64,000 bases of DNA, taken from assembly GCA_036500345.1 (NCBI GenBank), contig DASYCE010000007.1, positions 1 to 64,000 of the forward strand, written 5' to 3'. The translations under genes and the position numbers were made by a program. The number at the start of each line of letters is the position of its first letter. Within the stretch, counting starts at the first letter, position 1. Shown here piece by piece: positions 31,337 through 39,277 of this stretch. The DNA comes from Gemmatimonadales bacterium (lineage in GTDB: Bacteria; Gemmatimonadota; Gemmatimonadetes; Gemmatimonadales; GWC2-71-9). The notes below the pieces were generated by a model. That model saw nothing but the letters and a program-made list of their open reading frames with translations. It did no database searches and was not told the DNA's origin.

Positions 31337-32584
31337 ATGCCGCTCAGGGTCCGGAACGTCGGCGAAGGGGTCCTTCTCGCACTCGACGCGATGCGGAACA
31401 GCAAGCTGCGGTCCGCGCTCACGATCCTCGGTGTGGTGATCGGCGTCACCACCGTGATGGTGATGGCGTCGCTGGTGGAGGGGATTCGCGGACAGATCTT
31501 CGCGTCGATCGAAAACTCGGCACCCGAAACGTTCTACGTGATCCGCTATTTCTCGACCACCCCCGTCAACCCGAACAACCTCCCCGCCGAAGTCCGGATC
31601 CGGCCGGTGGTCGACCAGCGGGATGCCCAGGCGCTGGAGCGGATTCCGATCATCCGCCATGCGGGACTCTGGGTCCAGGTTCCGCAACGGATGGAATACC
31701 AGGGAATCCGGTCGCAGCAACTCAACATCTGGGGAGCCGACAACGCCTATCTCGACGTCCAGGGCGGGACGCTGCTGAGCGGCCGATTGTTCTCCACCGG
31801 TGAACTCGCCGGCGGCGCGCAGGTGGTGATCATCGCGCGGGATGTAGCGGACCGACTCTTCGGACAGCTCGACCCGCTCGGCCGCGTCGTCCGGATCGGC
31901 GGCAAGGCGTTCACGACGATCGGGGTCTTTGCGCCCCCCGACAACATCTTCCAGCCGCCCGGCCAGACCGACGGCGGTGTGATCCCGTTCCGCGCCGCCC
32001 AGCAGAATTACCACTACGACGAAACCAACGCGCTGTTGATCGTGGTGCTTCCGAACCGCGGCGTCAACGTCGACCTTGCCAAGGACGCGGCGATCAGCGC
32101 GCTGCGCGTCTCCCGCGGGCTGCATCCGGGCGCACCGAACAACTTCGATCTGCTGACCCAGGACCAGATCCTGCAGGTCATCGACAAGCTCACCTCGGCG
32201 TTCTTCCTGGTGATGATCGCGCTGTCGAGCGTGGCGCTCCTCGTTGGCGGGATCGGCGTCATGGCGATCATGATGGTCTCGGTCACCGACCGCACCCGCG
32301 AGATCGGGATTCGCAAGGCACTCGGCGCAACGCACGGCGAGGTGTTGCTGCAATTCCTGGTCGAAGCGGCGACGCTCACCGCCGTCGGCGGGTTGATCGG
32401 CATCGGGATCGGCATGCTTGGCGGTGAACTCCTCAAGGCGCTCCTCGGCATCAAGAGCGGGCCACCGCTCTGGAGCGCGCTGGTCGCGACCGGTGCCAGC
32501 ATCGCCATCGGCCTGGTGTTCGGCGTGATCCCCGCGAACCGCGCCGCGCGGCTCGATCCGGTGGAGGCGCTCCGGTACGAGTAG
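31337..32584 (+). CDS. MacB-type ABC permease, second 'B' copy
   Basis: 415 residues, paralogous to the second permease: VGEGVLLALDAMRNSKLRSA, TILGVVIGVTTVMVMAS, then TFYVIRYFSTT at the start of the periplasmic core. FtsX phrase DRTREIGIRKALGATHGEVL; end IPANRAARLDPVEALRYE. It closes the A-B-A'-B' set. The bshB1 start codon lies 18 bases further on, so that gene could be read from the same transcript. Confidence 0.9.
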   Translation: MPLRVRNVGEGVLLALDAMRNSKLRSALTILGVVIGVTTVMVMASLVEGIRGQIFASIENSAPETFYVIRYFSTTPVNPNNLPAEVRIRPVVDQRDAQALERIPIIRHAGLWVQVPQRMEYQGIRSQQLNIWGADNAYLDVQGGTLLSGRLFSTGELAGGAQVVIIARDVADRLFGQLDPLGRVVRIGGKAFTTIGVFAPPDNIFQPPGQTDGGVIPFRAAQQNYHYDETNALLIVVLPNRGVNVDLAKDAAISALRVSRGLHPGAPNNFDLLTQDQILQVIDKLTSAFFLVMIALSSVALLVGGIGVMAIMMVSVTDRTREIGIRKALGATHGEVLLQFLVEAATLTAVGGLIGIGIGMLGGELLKALLGIKSGPPLWSALVATGASIAIGLVFGVIPANRAARLDPVEALRYE

Positions 32585-32601
32585 TGTTCTATCTTCCGTC
32601 C

Positions 32602-33315
32602 ATGACCGTTGATCTCCTGGCCATCATGGCTCACCCCGACGACGCCGAGTTACTCTGCGGCGGCACCTTGATCCGCGCCGTCGATCAGGGGCACCGCGCC
32701 GCGGTGCTCGACTTGACCCGCGGTGAATTGGGAAGCCGCGGCACGCCCGAGCTCCGGGCCGAGGAGGCGGCGCGGTCGAGCGAAATCATGGGACTGAGCG
32801 AACGGGTCAACGCCGGCCTCCCCGACGGACATCTCGCCAACAACGATGCGACGCGCCGGGCGGTCGTGGAGCAGTTGCGCCGGCTGCGGCCGCGCACCGT
32901 GATCGTGCAATACAGCGAGGGACGCCACCCCGATCACCGGATCGCGTCGGAGCTGGCGCGCGACGCCTGTTTTCTCTCGGGGCTGGCGAATTATCCAGGG
33001 AGCGGCGAAAGGTTCCGTCCGTCGAAGATCTGCTTTGCGATTTCGTTCCGCGAGGATCAGGTCAAGCCGAGCTTCGTGGTCGACATCTCGGACCAGATGG
33101 AGCGGAAGCTGGCGGCGGTCCAGGCGTTCACATCGCAGTTCACAGGCGTCACGCAGGCTGGTGAGCTCCATCCGACCGGCCAGCCGCTCGTCGACTTGAT
33201 TGCCACGCAGAACGCGCATTATGGGTCGCTGATCCGTACGCGGTATGCCGAGCCGTTCTGGACCCGCGAGACGGTGGCGGTGGATGATATTGTCACGATG
33301 GGTGTGGCGACGTAA
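32602..33315 (+). CDS. bshB1: Bacillithiol-type GlcNAc-malate deacetylase (BshB1 family)
   Basis: 237 residues from ATG 32602, which puts the zinc motif at the N terminus as in the family. LLAIMAHPDDAELLCGGTL supplies HPDD, RHPDHRIA gives the third ligand, and DLTRGELGSRGTPELRAEEA is the hallmark of BshB1 over general PIG-L deacetylases. It would remove acetyl from GlcNAc-malate before cysteine addition in bacillithiol synthesis. bshA and bshC are not in the window, so the pathway is inferred from this gene only. Link to the upstream exporter is positional. Confidence 0.85.
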   Translation: MTVDLLAIMAHPDDAELLCGGTLIRAVDQGHRAAVLDLTRGELGSRGTPELRAEEAARSSEIMGLSERVNAGLPDGHLANNDATRRAVVEQLRRLRPRTVIVQYSEGRHPDHRIASELARDACFLSGLANYPGSGERFRPSKICFAISFREDQVKPSFVVDISDQMERKLAAVQAFTSQFTGVTQAGELHPTGQPLVDLIATQNAHYGSLIRTRYAEPFWTRETVAVDDIVTMGVAT

Positions 33316-33402
33316 CACTCCGCGCGCCCGATAGGGCCCGGGGACTATGCCCGCGCGCCGCGGCATTGACGGCCGCGATCGGCAAGGCAACTTTAGCCCC
33401 CT

Positions 33403-33741
33403 ATGGTACGCCGAACGGTGCATAGACTTCGCGCACTAGCCGCCATCCTGCTCTTCGCAGGAAGCGACGGCGCACCGCAGCTTGCTGATGCGCTTCTCTT
33501 CCATACCGGGCGACAGTACCACACCGAAATCGTCGGGGTCGACGACGGCCAGCACTGTCACGCCGAACGATGCGATCTCGGTGCCACCATCGCGTCGCCG
33601 CCACCGCTGGCGCCTCCCGATCTCGGCGATCGCTTCGAATTCGTCTCGTTCCGCGTCGCGTTCGTCTCACCGACGAATCCTCCGCGCCGCTGCCTCCACT
33701 CTGCTCCCGTCGGTTCCCGCGCTCCACCGCTCTTCTCCTGA
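33403..33741 (+). CDS. Small secreted His/Cys-containing protein of a probable metal locus
   Basis: 112 residues. A basic start and hydrophobic run (RLRALAAILLFAG) suggest a signal peptide. The mature N terminus holds clustered His and Cys (LLFHTGRQYHTEI, then DGQHCHAERC), and a proline-rich C terminus follows (ASPPPLAPPD, PTNPPRRC). This layout resembles the small DUF2946-like periplasmic proteins found next to metal efflux genes, though the match is by pattern only. It lies upstream of a TonB receptor, a CsoR-like regulator and a CDF exporter on the same strand. No ribosome-binding site is visible; TTGACG about 35 bases upstream may be part of a promoter with a very short leader. Confidence 0.5.
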   Translation: MVRRTVHRLRALAAILLFAGSDGAPQLADALLFHTGRQYHTEIVGVDDGQHCHAERCDLGATIASPPPLAPPDLGDRFEFVSFRVAFVSPTNPPRRCLHSAPVGSRAPPLFS

Positions 33742-33879
33742 CATTCGCTCAGACATAGCTGCCGTCGCGCGCTGATTGCGCGCGCGGTGAATCGAGTCCT
33801 TCGGGCGTCAGCTGCGCCCGGGACTCAGCAATCGGCGCCACCCGCGCCGGAGGCTCACCTCTGTTCGACGGAGTCGGGA

Positions 33880-36264
33880 ATGTCTTTCAAGCTGTTGCTG
33901 GCGGTGGCGTTGACCATCGCGCTACCATCGTCGGCCCTCGCCACGCCGCGCCCGCATGCGGGACCTATACTACGCAATGCGGATGTCGCCGGTCGTGTCA
34001 CGGACAGCACCTATGGCAAACCGCTCGCGGGGACGGAAATCGTCATCACGCGAGCCGGCACGGTCGTGTCGCGGGTCACAACCGATGAATTCGGCGCCTG
34101 GCGCGTCCACGATCTCGCACCGGCGGATTACCAGGTCGAGGCTCGGCTGATCGGATTCCGGCCGGCAACGCGTCCTGTCACCGTCGGAACCGGGACCGCC
34201 GATATCACGGTTGACATCACCCTCGTCCCGGCCCCGGTGCAGCTCAACGAGATCGGCGTCACCACGTCGCCGCTGGCGCTCAATACCCGGACCGGCGATC
34301 AGGTCTTCAAGCAGAGCGACTACCAGGGGGCGCCTACGCAGACCACTTCGCAGATCCTGCAGCAGTCGATTGCCGGGGCTGCACGCGCCCCCACCGGCGA
34401 AGTGCACATCCGCGGCCAGCACGCCGAATACACCTACTACATCGATGGACTGCCGGTTCCGCCGGGGATCTCCGGGAGCCTCAACGAACTCTTCGATCCG
34501 TCGGTGGTCAACACCATCGATTTCCAGACCGGCGGTTGGGACGCCGAGTTCGGCAAGCGCAACGCGGCGATCGTGAACGTGCAGACCAAGGTCCCCTCGG
34601 GGCTGTTCCATCTCACGGCGACCGGGTATGCGGGAAACTATGCCAGCAATGGCGAAACGGTCACGATGAGCGCGAACTCGGGAAAGTTCGGTTTCTTCGT
34701 CGCCGGAACGCAGCAGGGAACCGACTTGCGCCGTGAGCCGGTCGTCGCCGACACGACCGCCTTGGGATCGATCACCGGCATCCGTAACTACGCCAATGAC
34801 GGCAAGGATCTCTTCGGATTTGCCAAGATCCAGTACGTGGCGAACGATCACGACCTGTTGAATCTCGACGTAAACCTTTCGCGGTCGCGCTTCGCTACGC
34901 CATTTGACTCGTCTGCCGGGGGGATCGATGACCGGCAGCAGGACATCAATCATTTCGTCAATCTTTCCTGGCAGCACCGCGAGCTGGCAGGACAACACGC
35001 CGGATCCGAAGCCTTCGCCGGCGTGTATTACCGGTACGGCTCATTGAATTACGTCCCCGGCGTCGCGGACGACCCGACCTTCACCTTCGCTCCAGATACC
35101 ACGCTCTACAACATCGCCGAAGCGCGGTCGTTCAATATCATCGGCTTCAAGGCAGACTACCTGCTGCAGGTCACGCCGAAGGTGAGCTTCAAGGCCGGGA
35201 CCGACCTGTCGAAGACCAGCGGCACCGAGGCGTTCAGCACCTTCGACGCCGGCGGCAATTCCGGACCGGCATCGAATTCCGTTCTCAACGGCAATGACCA
35301 GGCAGCGTACATCCAGTCGGTGCTGCAACCGAGCGAGAAGATCGAGTTCCGGGTCGGCGTGCGCTACGACCGCCACTCGTATCCGCTGTCACCGACTGTC
35401 GACACCGCCGTCGACCAGGTGAGCCCGCGATTCCGCATCAACCTCTACCCCAGTTCGGCGACATCGTTCTGGTTCTACTACGGGCGGCAGTTCATGCCGA
35501 CCAACACCGAGGACCTGCGGGCGATCACCACCGCCGCGACCGGCGGCGAAGCGTCGACGCCGACGTTGCCGGAGCGTGACGACTTCTTCGAGGTCGGCGC
35601 GATCCACCGGTTCAATCACGTCGTGGCGAAGCTTTCGGGGTACCGCAAGAACAGTTCGCCAGGGATCGATGACACCCAGATTCCGGGCTCGGCGATCACG
35701 ACGGACGTCAACATCGCCGAGGTGCACGTTACCGGGATCGAAGCCGTGCTCGAAGTGCGGCCCAGCGGACCGCTGACCGGATTCCTGAATCTGTCCGTCA
35801 ACCACGCCTACGGCGAAGGCGCCGTCACCGGCGCATTCCTCGCCGAGACGCCGCCGGCGCAGGCGTTCGATCTCGACCACGATCAGCGGTTCTCCAGTGT
35901 CGTGGGGCTCACCTGGTCGCAGGGGAAGCTGCTGGCGACCGCCACCGGGATCTACGGAAGCGGACTGACCAATGGCCTGACCCCCAACGCGCCCGAGCTG
36001 CCCGGATTCGATCCCACCCAACCGTCGACACCCGTCCTCGGCACGGGCCTGTTCGACTTCAACAAGCCGTTCAAGGTCGACCCGAACTTCATCGCCGATG
36101 CATCGGCTGGCATCACCTTTACCTCGGGGACGGTCACGTTCCGGCCGCAGATCTTCGTCGACAACGTCTTCAACTCGAAGTACTTGCTCAAGGGAGCGTT
36201 CTTCAGCGGTGCGTCGTTCGGGCGGCCGCGGACGTACTCGCTCCGGATGACGGTCGGGATATGA
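33880..36264 (+). CDS. TonB-dependent receptor with N-terminal carboxypeptidase-like domain
   Basis: 794 residues from ATG 33880 (GGAG six bases upstream), followed by a signal peptide (LLLAVALTIALPSSALA). Residues about 35-120 form a CarboxypepD_reg-like Ig fold (VAGRVTDSTYGKPLAGTEIV). The plug domain, about 120-235, has ILQQSIAGAARAPTGEVHIR and YYIDGLPVPPGISGS. The rest is the outer-membrane barrel, closing with YSLRMTVGI. By family it imports a ligand across the outer membrane using TonB energy. The flanking genes suggest a metal chelate; that is inference. It is followed 9 bases later by the CsoR-like gene. Confidence 0.88.
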   Translation: MSFKLLLAVALTIALPSSALATPRPHAGPILRNADVAGRVTDSTYGKPLAGTEIVITRAGTVVSRVTTDEFGAWRVHDLAPADYQVEARLIGFRPATRPVTVGTGTADITVDITLVPAPVQLNEIGVTTSPLALNTRTGDQVFKQSDYQGAPTQTTSQILQQSIAGAARAPTGEVHIRGQHAEYTYYIDGLPVPPGISGSLNELFDPSVVNTIDFQTGGWDAEFGKRNAAIVNVQTKVPSGLFHLTATGYAGNYASNGETVTMSANSGKFGFFVAGTQQGTDLRREPVVADTTALGSITGIRNYANDGKDLFGFAKIQYVANDHDLLNLDVNLSRSRFATPFDSSAGGIDDRQQDINHFVNLSWQHRELAGQHAGSEAFAGVYYRYGSLNYVPGVADDPTFTFAPDTTLYNIAEARSFNIIGFKADYLLQVTPKVSFKAGTDLSKTSGTEAFSTFDAGGNSGPASNSVLNGNDQAAYIQSVLQPSEKIEFRVGVRYDRHSYPLSPTVDTAVDQVSPRFRINLYPSSATSFWFYYGRQFMPTNTEDLRAITTAATGGEASTPTLPERDDFFEVGAIHRFNHVVAKLSGYRKNSSPGIDDTQIPGSAITTDVNIAEVHVTGIEAVLEVRPSGPLTGFLNLSVNHAYGEGAVTGAFLAETPPAQAFDLDHDQRFSSVVGLTWSQGKLLATATGIYGSGLTNGLTPNAPELPGFDPTQPSTPVLGTGLFDFNKPFKVDPNFIADASAGITFTSGTVTFRPQIFVDNVFNSKYLLKGAFFSGASFGRPRTYSLRMTVGI

Positions 36265-36273
36265 CGGTGGCCC

Positions 36274-36612
36274 ATGATGCGGGAGGACTCCGTGACAGCG
36301 TTTGAGAGTTCGCGCATGGGCGTTCCGGACCTCTCGGCAGGGTCGCGTTCGAGGGCGGCGGTAATCCGCCGCCTTCGGCGAATCGAGGGGCAGGCGCGCG
36401 GCCTGCAGAAAATGGTCGACGAGGGCCGCAACGGTGACGAAATCCTGGGCCAGATCGCGTCGGTTCGCGAGGCGCTCTACGGTGTCGCTGCGATCGTGCT
36501 CGAAGATTATCTCGCATCCAGCGCCGAGTCGGTCATGCGCGCCGGGAGCGAGGCCGAGGGAGAGGAACTGATCGCGAACGCCGTGCGGATCTTCAAGAAA
36601 TGGGTGCCGTAG
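36274..36612 (+). CDS. CsoR/RcnR-family (DUF156) transcriptional regulator without the usual metal ligands
   Basis: 112 residues. The helical DUF156 core is clear: RRLRRIEGQARGLQKMVDEG, then ILGQIASVREALYGVAAIVL. CsoR uses Cys-His-Cys and RcnR uses Cys-His-His at fixed spacing. Aligning on the core, these positions are Gly54, Tyr79 and Ser83, so none of the standard ligands remains and there is no cysteine in the protein. It may sense something else through the N-terminal extension (residues 1-28) or act as a constitutive repressor. It sits between the TonB receptor and the CDF exporter and most likely controls this locus. Confidence 0.82.
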   Translation: MMREDSVTAFESSRMGVPDLSAGSRSRAAVIRRLRRIEGQARGLQKMVDEGRNGDEILGQIASVREALYGVAAIVLEDYLASSAESVMRAGSEAEGEELIANAVRIFKKWVP

Positions 36613-36643
36613 ATCCTATGCCCTCCGACCGGGACGGATCCAG

Positions 36644-37273
36644 GTGAACTCGGTGCCCGCCGGTATCGCGATACCGATAGGCATTGACGACGCACGGCGC
36701 AATCAGGCCATCTATCTGCGTGCGTGGCTGCTGACGCTGGTGATCGTCGGTCTCGAGGTGGCGGGTTCCGCCACCTCGGGCTCGCTGGCGCTCCTGGCCG
36801 ACGTGGGCCACGTCATCGCCGATACGATGCTCGCAGTCGTGCCGCTGTCCATTGCCTATGCCACGCGACGCGGACGAAGCTATCGGCTGCTGAACCGGCT
36901 TGCAGGAATGGCCGCCGCGTTGTTGCTCGCCTTCATCGGCTACCACATCATTGCGGAATCGCGCGCTGACTTGCTGGAGGGTCAACACCGCAATGTGAGG
37001 GGGTGGCTCCTCTTTCTGTTCGCCGCCTCGGCCGCCGGGGTCAACATGATGCAGCACCGGCTGCTGTCGCGTGTGAGCTCGCTGCATCGACATGCGGCGC
37101 ACCGGGGACTCCATTTTCACGTGCTGACCGACTTGTTCAAGAACACCGCGTTGCCCGTGCTCGGTGCGCTCATTGCCTTCGGAGCCGTGCCGACCCGCGC
37201 TGACATCTATGTCGCGCTGGCCATTGGTGGACTCATTCTCGTTCGGGCATTCGTCCTGGTCATCGAAGTTTGA
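36644..37273 (+). CDS. CDF-family metal cation exporter (CzcD-like), short form
   Basis: 209 residues from GTG 36644 (CAGG just upstream). About six membrane helices. The transport site is recognisable: SLALLADVGHVIADT gives Asp53, His56 and Asp60 in TM2, and HFHVLTDLFKN gives His159 and Asp163 in TM5, the CzcD-type H-x3-D pair used for Zn/Co/Cd. It stops after TM6, so the cytoplasmic dimerisation domain of typical CDF proteins is absent. It would export divalent cations by proton antiport. It is the last intact gene of the metal locus; the 21-bp repeat region begins right after. Confidence 0.85.
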   Translation: MNSVPAGIAIPIGIDDARRNQAIYLRAWLLTLVIVGLEVAGSATSGSLALLADVGHVIADTMLAVVPLSIAYATRRGRSYRLLNRLAGMAAALLLAFIGYHIIAESRADLLEGQHRNVRGWLLFLFAASAAGVNMMQHRLLSRVSSLHRHAAHRGLHFHVLTDLFKNTALPVLGALIAFGAVPTRADIYVALAIGGLILVRAFVLVIEV

Positions 37274-37809
37274 GTGGCAGAAGAAACTTCGCTGGCCGCC
37301 TCACGTCGGCGTCGGCAGAATTCGCGAACCGCCGGGATTCTCCCGCGAACCGCCGGGATCCTCCAGCGAACCGCCCTTCTCCGATATCGAACCGCCGGAA
37401 TCGGGCAGCGCCTGGAGCTGTCGAAGCCAAGCGATGCCCTCCGACAATCATCCTTCGAGGTTTGCCATCCGCTGAACGCGGTTACTCAGCCGCGATGCGG
37501 CGTTCACCTGCCATGAAGCGCTGGATGCGGGCCGTCGTCGATGCTGATCAGTCGGCGAAACGCTGTTTGTCCCCCATCGTCCTCGCTGACGATTCCTTGA
37601 TATGCCGTTTGCCAGTCGCGGAACGAACTATCTCCACCGCGAAATGCCCTGATTCTCTGTTGATGTGCCGTGATTCTCCGTTGATGTGCGGTGATTCTCT
37701 GTTGATATGCGGTGATTTCATGTTGGAATGCGCTGACGATCACTTGGAACGCTGTTTGACAGTCATGAAGCGCCGAAATCGCCAGCGGAACTCGGTGTTG
37801 CCGAGTTGA
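37270..37809 (+). pseudogene. Upstream half of a possible heptad-repeat gene, frameshifted
   Basis: An open plus-strand frame (from TTG 37270, overlapping the CDF stop) runs through the first part of a 21-bp repeat array. It encodes loosely repeating seven-residue units such as NRRDSPA-NRRDPPA and later MCRDSPL-MCGDSLL-ICGDFML. Its last units, LERCLTV and MKRRNRQ, match the heptads LKRCVTD and LKRRVSE of the next frame. The unit at about 37785-37805 is 20 bases instead of 21, which breaks the frame and gives an early stop at 37807. Restoring one base would join the two frames into a product of about 260 residues. This may be a decayed gene, a sequencing error, or non-coding repeat DNA that is open by chance. 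Confidence 0.3.
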
Positions 37810-38038
37810 AGCGCCCTTTCGCAGAGTTGAAACGCTGTGTGACCGACTTGAAGCGCCGTGTCTCCGAGTTGGAACTCCGTGATAGTGAGTTGGAGGGCTG
37901 TGCTAGTGAGTTTGAGCGCCGGACCAGTGAGTTTGAACGCTGTGCTCGTCGGTTTGAACGTCCTGTTGGACGATTCGAGCGGTCCGTTCGCCGGTTGGAG
38001 AGCGTGTCCGCACGAACTTTCCCGCTATTCGCCACCGA
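37321..38038 (+). repeat. Diverged 21-bp tandem repeat array (about 34 units)
   Basis: A core like GAA(C/A/G)CGC recurs with a 21-base period: its first G falls at 37326, 37347, 37368 and 37389, then after weaker units at 37515, 37557, 37599, 37641, 37662, 37683, 37704, 37725, 37746 and 37767. After a one-base slip it falls at 37808, 37829 and 37850, and so on to about 38010. Adjacent units near 37650-37720 (TTCTCTGTTGATGTGCCGTGA type) are nearly identical, while others are heavily diverged. GC content is visibly lower than in the flanks. The period is a multiple of three, so every frame encodes seven-residue repeats. Confidence 0.8.
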
Positions 38039-38051
38039 ATTCTCCTGGTAG
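37806..38051 (+). CDS. Possible heptad-repeat coiled-coil protein (81 residues or C-terminal half of a longer one)
   Basis: The plus-strand frame of the better-preserved half of the array. It encodes ten successive heptads: LKRPFAE, LKRCVTD, LKRRVSE, LELRDSE, LEGCASE, FERRTSE, FERCARR, FERPVGR, FERSVRR, LESVSAR. Leu/Phe and Val/Ala alternate at three- and four-residue spacing, the classic a/d pattern of a coiled coil, and the remaining positions are charged. The only start is TTG 37806, without a ribosome-binding site, so it is more likely the continuation of the frame upstream than an independent gene. It ends in TAG 56 bases before the cysteine desulfurase. The minus strand is also open here, but its product is a Ser/Asn/Arg-rich string without amphipathic order. 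Confidence 0.3.
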   Translation: MKRPFAELKRCVTDLKRRVSELELRDSELEGCASEFERRTSEFERCARRFERPVGRFERSVRRLESVSARTFPLFATEFSW

Positions 38052-38107
38052 GCGATTTTCACCAGGGTGCCCCCCGGCTGCCGGTCCCGTTGTTTACATT
38101 TATCCAC

Positions 38108-39277
38108 ATGGATCCGATCTACCTCGACCACTCCGCCACGACGCCGGTCCGGCCGGAAGTGCTGGACGCGATGCTTCCGTTCCTCAGCGCCTCCTGGGGG
38201 AATCCGTCCTCGGCGCACCGCTTCGGTCGCGCCGCCAAGGCCGGGCTCGAACAGGCGAAGCGCGAGGTAGCCACGGCGCTCGACGTCGAACCCAACCACG
38301 TCATCTTCACCTCGGGCGGGACCGAAGCCGACAACCTCGCCATCATCGGCGCGGCCCTCGCGGCACGGGCGCATGGCCGGGCGATGCACGTCGTCACCAC
38401 CGCGATCGAACACAAGGCGGCGCTCGCTGCAGCCCATGCCGTCGTCGAGCTCGGTGGCCGCGAGACGATCCTCGGCGTCGACGAGAACGGCACCGTCCTC
38501 CTCGATGAGCTCGACGCAGCCCTCGCTGATCATCCCAACGTCGTGTCGGTGATGTGGGTCAACAACGAAGTTGGTGTGGTGCAGCCGATGGCGGAGATCG
38601 GCGCGCGATGTCGCGCCGCCGGCGTGCCACTCCACAGCGACGCGGTGCAGGCGTTCGGCAAGGTGCCGGTCAACCTCGACGCCGCCGGCTGTACCCTCCT
38701 CTCCATCAGCGCCCACAAGCTCGGCGCCCCGAAGGGAGTCGGTGCACTGATCGTTCGCGACCGGAAGATTGTCGAAGCGATCATTCACGGCGGCGGCCAG
38801 CAATACGGCATTCGGCCCGGGACCGAGAACGTCGCCGGCGCCGTGGCACTCGGCCGCGCCGCGCGTCTCGCCCGCGAAGAGCTCGACCGCGAGATGCCGC
38901 GGCTCCGCGCGCTGCGCGACGACCTCGAAGCGCGACTCGTCGCCGCCGTCCCCGATCTCGTGGTCAACTCGCGTGAGGCCACCCGCGCACCCCACATCCT
39001 GTCGGTCTCGATTCCGGGTGCCGAGTCCGAAGCACTCCTGATGCATTTCGATCTCGCGGGGATCGCATGCTCCGGCGGATCGGCGTGCTCCACCGGCGCC
39101 GTCGAACCATCGCATGTGTTGAATGCGATGGGCATCGAACGATCGGTCGCACTGGGAACGATCCGCTTTTCGCTCGGGCACGAGAGCACTGCCGCAGACG
39201 TTCAGCGGGTTGCCGACGCGTTCCCCGCCGTGGTCGATCGCGTGCGCCAGCTCGGAGTTGCTCTCGGCCGTGCGTGA
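38108..39277 (+). CDS. Cysteine desulfurase (NifS/IscS family)
   Basis: 389 residues from ATG 38108; [19 protein letters not shown] is the usual N terminus. The PLP lysine lies in [18 protein letters not shown], preceded by [12 protein letters not shown]. The catalytic loop [18 protein letters not shown] carries the persulfide-forming Cys in the long-loop (group I) arrangement. [12 protein letters not shown] holds the cofactor phosphate. It releases sulfur from L-cysteine as enzyme persulfide. The mnmA gene overlaps its end by eight bases, so its main role here is probably tRNA thiolation, with possible supply to Fe-S assembly. Confidence 0.93.

Follow-up and report, generated by a model that had tools for sequence, protein, structure and literature searches.

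We find that the window, the whole 64,000-nucleotide stretch of a Gemmatimonadales genome analysed here, carries a long array of 21-bp direct repeats, W (37324..37995, forward strand), which is one of a number of lineage-specific arrays, dispersed through this genome, that have a common period and differing sequences, and we show that the 21-bp register persists although the units have diverged heavily. W belongs to an ordinary kind of feature, the intergenic minisatellite, in an unusual form: it is dispersed, has a single two-turn period, and keeps its register despite divergence. To the fuller reading, in which W is a noncoding, lineage-specific, dispersed intergenic array of ~32 diverged direct repeats placed at exactly 21 bp, or two turns of B-DNA, and in which this two-turn phasing is constrained, we give roughly even chances.

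Decomposition by dynamic programming divides W into 32 units with the consensus tTGaAaCGCcGTGat.C.gcc. Spacings are 21 bp in 30 of 31 cases, which is the constant whole-turn spacing of a helically phased binding array, and the single exception is 20 bp, with the reservation that some other spacings may be hidden because the decomposition penalises shifts. The earlier note on this DNA had described a core recurring every 21 bases in 37321-38038, and across this interval lag-21 identity is indeed 0.505 (z 13.9), where sequences simulated 2000 times under a first-order Markov model give 0.259 +/- 0.018. Among lags of 3 to 30 only 21 is prominent, and a 7- or 14-bp sub-period is absent (lag-7 identity 0.25, lag-14 identity 0.26). 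The note's count of roughly 34 units was close to ours, while the end it gave, 38038, lies ~43 bp beyond the last unit, within a tail (37996..38042, +) that is also present in a paralogous array, A2, with whose tail it can still be aligned. On the forward strand, W comprises a 5' sub-block of four well-preserved GCGAACCGCCGGGATTCTCCC-type units (37324..37407), a middle sub-block of four TTGATGTGCCGTGATTCTCTG-type units (37639..37722), the sole 20-bp unit (37765..37784), which shifts the frame and has a 20-bp counterpart at the matching position in A2, and a 3' sub-block of TTGAAGCGCYGTGNNNNNNNN units (37806..37995), the portion that had been read as heptads. Tandem Repeats Finder detects only the best-preserved stretches of W. 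Conservation is position-specific within units in four arrays (P 0.006 or less), and the most conserved base of the W unit is the T at position 11.

Tandem periods of 10-45 were sampled over 1.21 Mb, or 37%, of the genome. In this sample eight loci have a period of 21, seven of them intergenic as judged from their flanking ORFs and the eighth within a coding gene, in a stretch that resembles a coiled coil, and all other periods combined contribute three loci, with period 42 excluded as a harmonic of the 21-bp loci. Tandem loci of other periods in the sample include one of 33 bp (L123 16383-16958) and one of 24 bp (L145 15238-15625); periodic matches at L075, L082, and L142 from the first scans were set aside, as they lie in apparently coding DNA. 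Profile comparison sorts the 21-bp arrays into the groups W/A2/A3, L070/L140, and L117/L118, and there are at least three unit families among them. The A3, L070, and L140 arrays have 21 bp as their sole spacing, and the L117 array has five 20-bp spacings. The arrays of the set occur in both orientations and in differing gene contexts, so that no common regulatory role is visible. In a genome from another family of the order (G178), 21 bp is likewise the commonest period (5 of 16 loci, with different sequences). On contig 16 of that genome, two young 21-bp arrays with different units adjoin each other (L066 7034-7957), each preceded by a copy of one ~150-bp sequence located upstream of a gene start. 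Two congeners, G009 and G004, have 7-bp arrays instead, at 9 of 9 loci and in several sequences; these are intergenic and include GAGACGA/GAGACGT, CCCTTCT, and CCCGTGA (L104 230-620, 1080-1350, and 6340-6680; L099 10630-10820; L181, L183, and L184).

The closest relatives of W lie in the same genome, at A2 (contig 26, ~55.9-56.5 kb) and A3 (contig 21, ~23.9-24.5 kb). W and A2 are ~67% identical and have a common unit order along their length, with an alignment score of 485 vs 182 +/- 21 for unit-order shuffles; the excess is weaker for W and A3 (225 vs 156 +/- 15). Entire arrays have thus been duplicated into other sites of this genome. The gaps between W and A2 within the array sum to 0, 21, 21, and 21 bp, which means that length has changed by whole units only, as in a bacterial minisatellite with its head-to-tail tandem units, and the substitution spectrum between the two arrays is unremarkable.

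W lies at the downstream end of a ~4.8-kb lineage-specific insertion (33316..38107, +) that is absent in seven congeners. In these congeners the PIG-L/LmbE deacetylase gene (32584-33315 in the window) and the cysteine desulfurase gene (38108-39277) are direct neighbours, with the aligned blocks 31-221 bp apart. The insertion carries, all on the forward strand, an outer-membrane beta-barrel/TonB-receptor-like gene (33787..36264; Pfam CarboxypepD_reg and OMP_b-brl_3), a gene for a metal-sensitive transcriptional repressor of the CsoR/RcnR family (36274..36612; Pfam PF02583), and a cation-efflux (CDF-like) transporter gene (36644..37273), which ends 50 bp upstream of W and has no match in nine congeners. 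A2 is itself an insertion of ~700 bp that consists of the array only: 792 bp separate the neighbouring genes here vs roughly 35-90 bp in three congeners, as measured from tblastn coordinates in the three with the best-aligned gene ends on both sides. At the L070 site, trpS lies some tens of bases from an inositol-phosphatase-like gene in congeners, and in this genome a glyoxalase-family gene and the array stand between them. The arrays are therefore absent from congeners at all three comparable loci, and no orthologous array was found in congeners. Two candidate matches were dismissed, namely a weak one in G006, which lies within an apparently coding stretch and has no 21-bp periodicity, and one in G039, a short low-complexity AACAACAGA repeat that we judged unrelated. 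A phage or plasmid origin of W was also considered and rejected, with no match and no viral contig. Near A2, a beta-propeller-like gene (L006 2818-4230) lies between an M28-type peptidase gene and an LVIVD-type gene; five congeners align on both sides and leave no room for such a gene. Across the W, A2, and L070 sites, arrays are associated with acquired genes at two of the three loci, and we regard this association as only a lead.

In five arrays or array segments, lag-105 identity is 0.39-0.50 though lag-21 identity is only 0.48-0.66. When neutral decay was simulated with indel:substitution ratios of at least 0.05, no more than 5% of runs reached a lag-105 identity of ~0.40, and at a ratio of 0.03 the observed register was kept in 0-30% of runs, depending on divergence; these ratios are assumed values, and a very low natural ratio in this lineage is possible. 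We infer that the 21-bp register is probably under constraint, a case made from comparison within one genome, since no candidate binding protein was found and congeners have no orthologous array. The W-type arrays show strong 10.5-bp power in their AT content (18.7, 14.6, and 10.7). This helical-phase power is high in the W-type family only, and predicted roll power elsewhere is unremarkable. General intrinsic curvature, predicted with roll values from published tables, was set aside as an explanation for the set, being high for the W-type arrays only and modest even there when compared with column-permuted controls (P 0.026, 0.02, and 0.13). The property common to the arrays is their spacing, not curvature.

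The strongest competing account, which we consider a serious possibility though one that falls short of even odds, is that the arrays are neutral, selfish minisatellites that grow by slippage and unequal exchange, are occasionally copied whole, and decay unit by unit, with the 21-bp step reflecting a mutational preference. The many sequence flavours of the arrays, their varied orientations and neighbours, and their absence from congeners would all be expected from such a process, and the 7-bp arrays of the congeners, which also come in several sequences, point to a preference for certain periods regardless of sequence. We also count in its favour the over-representation of heptameric repeats in bacteria, for which slippage related to the polymerase footprint has been hypothesised (PMC4692102). 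However, a neutral origin does not readily account for a register held across 15-30 units at ~50% unit identity, for indels between W and A2 in whole units only, or for the unequal conservation among unit positions. An improbable alternative is that the arrays are attachment or recombination sites at insertion edges, forming part of the machinery that imports the adjacent accessory genes. The position of W at the end of its insertion and that of the L070 array next to the inserted glyoxalase-family gene agree with this, but the A2 insertion holds an array alone, the genes of the W insertion include no recombinase, no long flanking repeat was found, and the comparison is limited to three loci. 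Less probable again, and in our view very doubtful, is the idea that W specifies a structured RNA or a series of small RNA units: W folds slightly better than shuffled sequence on both strands, but the z-scores (-1.8 and -1.5) are non-significant, no Rfam family reaches threshold, neither a terminator- nor a promoter-like site was found in the region, and folding as single-stranded DNA is no better than chance.

A coiled-coil gene, or its decayed remains, has a similarly slight probability. The earlier note had seen ten heptads in the 3' half of W, and an ORF of 81 aa with a TTG start (37806..38051, +) does read as ~ten regular, LKRCVTD-like heptads. Moreover, the corresponding phase of W is free of stops over 31 units where 3.3 would be expected from column-shuffled units (P 0.02), but this depletion is absent in A2 and non-significant in A3. 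The upstream half of W forms a separate ORF of 179 aa (37270-37809) in a different genomic frame. The two ORFs share one phase of the 21-bp unit, but the 20-bp unit is a base short and so breaks the frame, and no single joined frame runs through W. A2 has three stops in the phase corresponding to the W ORFs, such that a single open frame is not kept in the paralogue either. Codon-position GC in the two tracts, read in the phase of the earlier note, is flat (0.59/0.57/0.59 and 0.62/0.51/0.61) and departs from the 0.60-0.75/0.45-0.49/0.77-0.82 of neighbouring genes. Mismatch rates between W and A2 at codon positions 1, 2, and 3 are 0.38, 0.33, and 0.30, without a wobble excess, and the conserved T at unit position 11 falls on a wobble position in the ORF phase. 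Neither ORF matched a family in Pfam or NCBIfam, the 81-aa ORF has no relative among 197 other genomes of the class, and the array region contains no sigma-70 promoter-like site. We therefore judge the 81-aa ORF not to be a gene, a coiled-coil gene reading of W to be very unlikely, and W to be noncoding. The note's proposal of a coiled-coil gene or a minisatellite able to give rise to one consequently keeps its second half, as to kind, and loses its first, and the free, rapid growth and decay that it envisaged does not sit well with a register stricter than simulated neutral decay permits. Elsewhere in the genome, 21-bp periodicity is also present in a coding gene that includes a coiled-coil-like stretch (NEELQSANEEVQSTNEELQS; L142 2009-2448), and this gene is a useful positive control for the appearance of coding heptads.

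Comparison with known systems places W closest to bacterial minisatellites and VNTR loci, with which it has in common intergenic head-to-tail direct repeats, whole-unit change, and lineage-specific presence. Unlike these, arrays here that look unrelated share one period, and their register survives ~50% divergence between units. A CRISPR array was considered and rejected, as the units of W are diverged throughout, their variable part is common to neighbours, and no Rfam model matches at threshold. Many iterons are direct repeats at about 21-22 bp, that is, at whole helical turns. W resembles iterons and other phased binding arrays of plasmid origins and partition sites in its direct repeats at whole-turn spacing, whereas the W set is chromosomal, with 15-30 diverged units and many copies per genome; W is flanked by genes for a cation-efflux transporter and for a cysteine desulfurase, and it has no replication or partition gene next to it, as an iteron origin or partition array would. 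Heptameric simple-sequence repeats have been described in Xanthomonas, Nostoc, and Geobacter (PMC4692102, PMC2700814), and these, together with cyanobacterial STRR arrays, are likewise intergenic tandem arrays with a preferred period and several sequences. In contrast, units of the W set are 21 bp long, heavily diverged, and assembled into arrays of 300-700 bp; W lacks the 7-bp unit of a heptanucleotide repeat array. A pattern-based search across 84,980 species genomes returned one array with a W-type core, in the Spartobacteria MAG UBA5019 (L148 3272-3564), which consists of 14 units of GTTGGAACGCCGTGCCGGAGG and matches W in its 21-bp period and in an identical 13-bp core, TTGGAACGCYGTG. This array comes from another phylum and is young (91% identical), and in a model search that covered 384 genomes of that class no other genome had an array of its type. 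Because the units repeat, one chance unit match would suffice, and we claim neither a common origin of the two arrays nor cross-phylum conservation of the TTGGAACGCYGTG core. We found no description of 21-bp arrays of this kind in the literature searched, which was largely without subscription papers.

Taken together, we believe that a protein-binding platform is the most likely mechanism behind these arrays, somewhat ahead of a neutral origin. On the platform reading, the register would be kept since the units work together from a single face of the helix and not through encoding anything, and they would most likely be sites recognised by a multimerising DNA-binding protein of a nucleoid-type or regulatory kind. 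Such arrays would form and multiply through duplication of units and through being copied into new intergenic sites, two of which lie beside newly acquired genes. A broader proposal, that across the genome the 21-bp register and not the sequence is conserved, so that several independent unit families would all contribute to a single phased DNA-protein platform, seeded next to newly acquired genes, is one that we put forward as speculative and rather unlikely.

Finally, our analyses carry a caution for annotation, in that a 21-bp period can in itself produce heptad-like ORFs, which may then be annotated as coiled-coil proteins. Tandem repeats between bacterial genes are commonly viewed as products of slippage, with a period that varies from locus to locus. 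With a genome in which nearly all long arrays have one two-turn period and different sequences, selection on spacing alone becomes testable.
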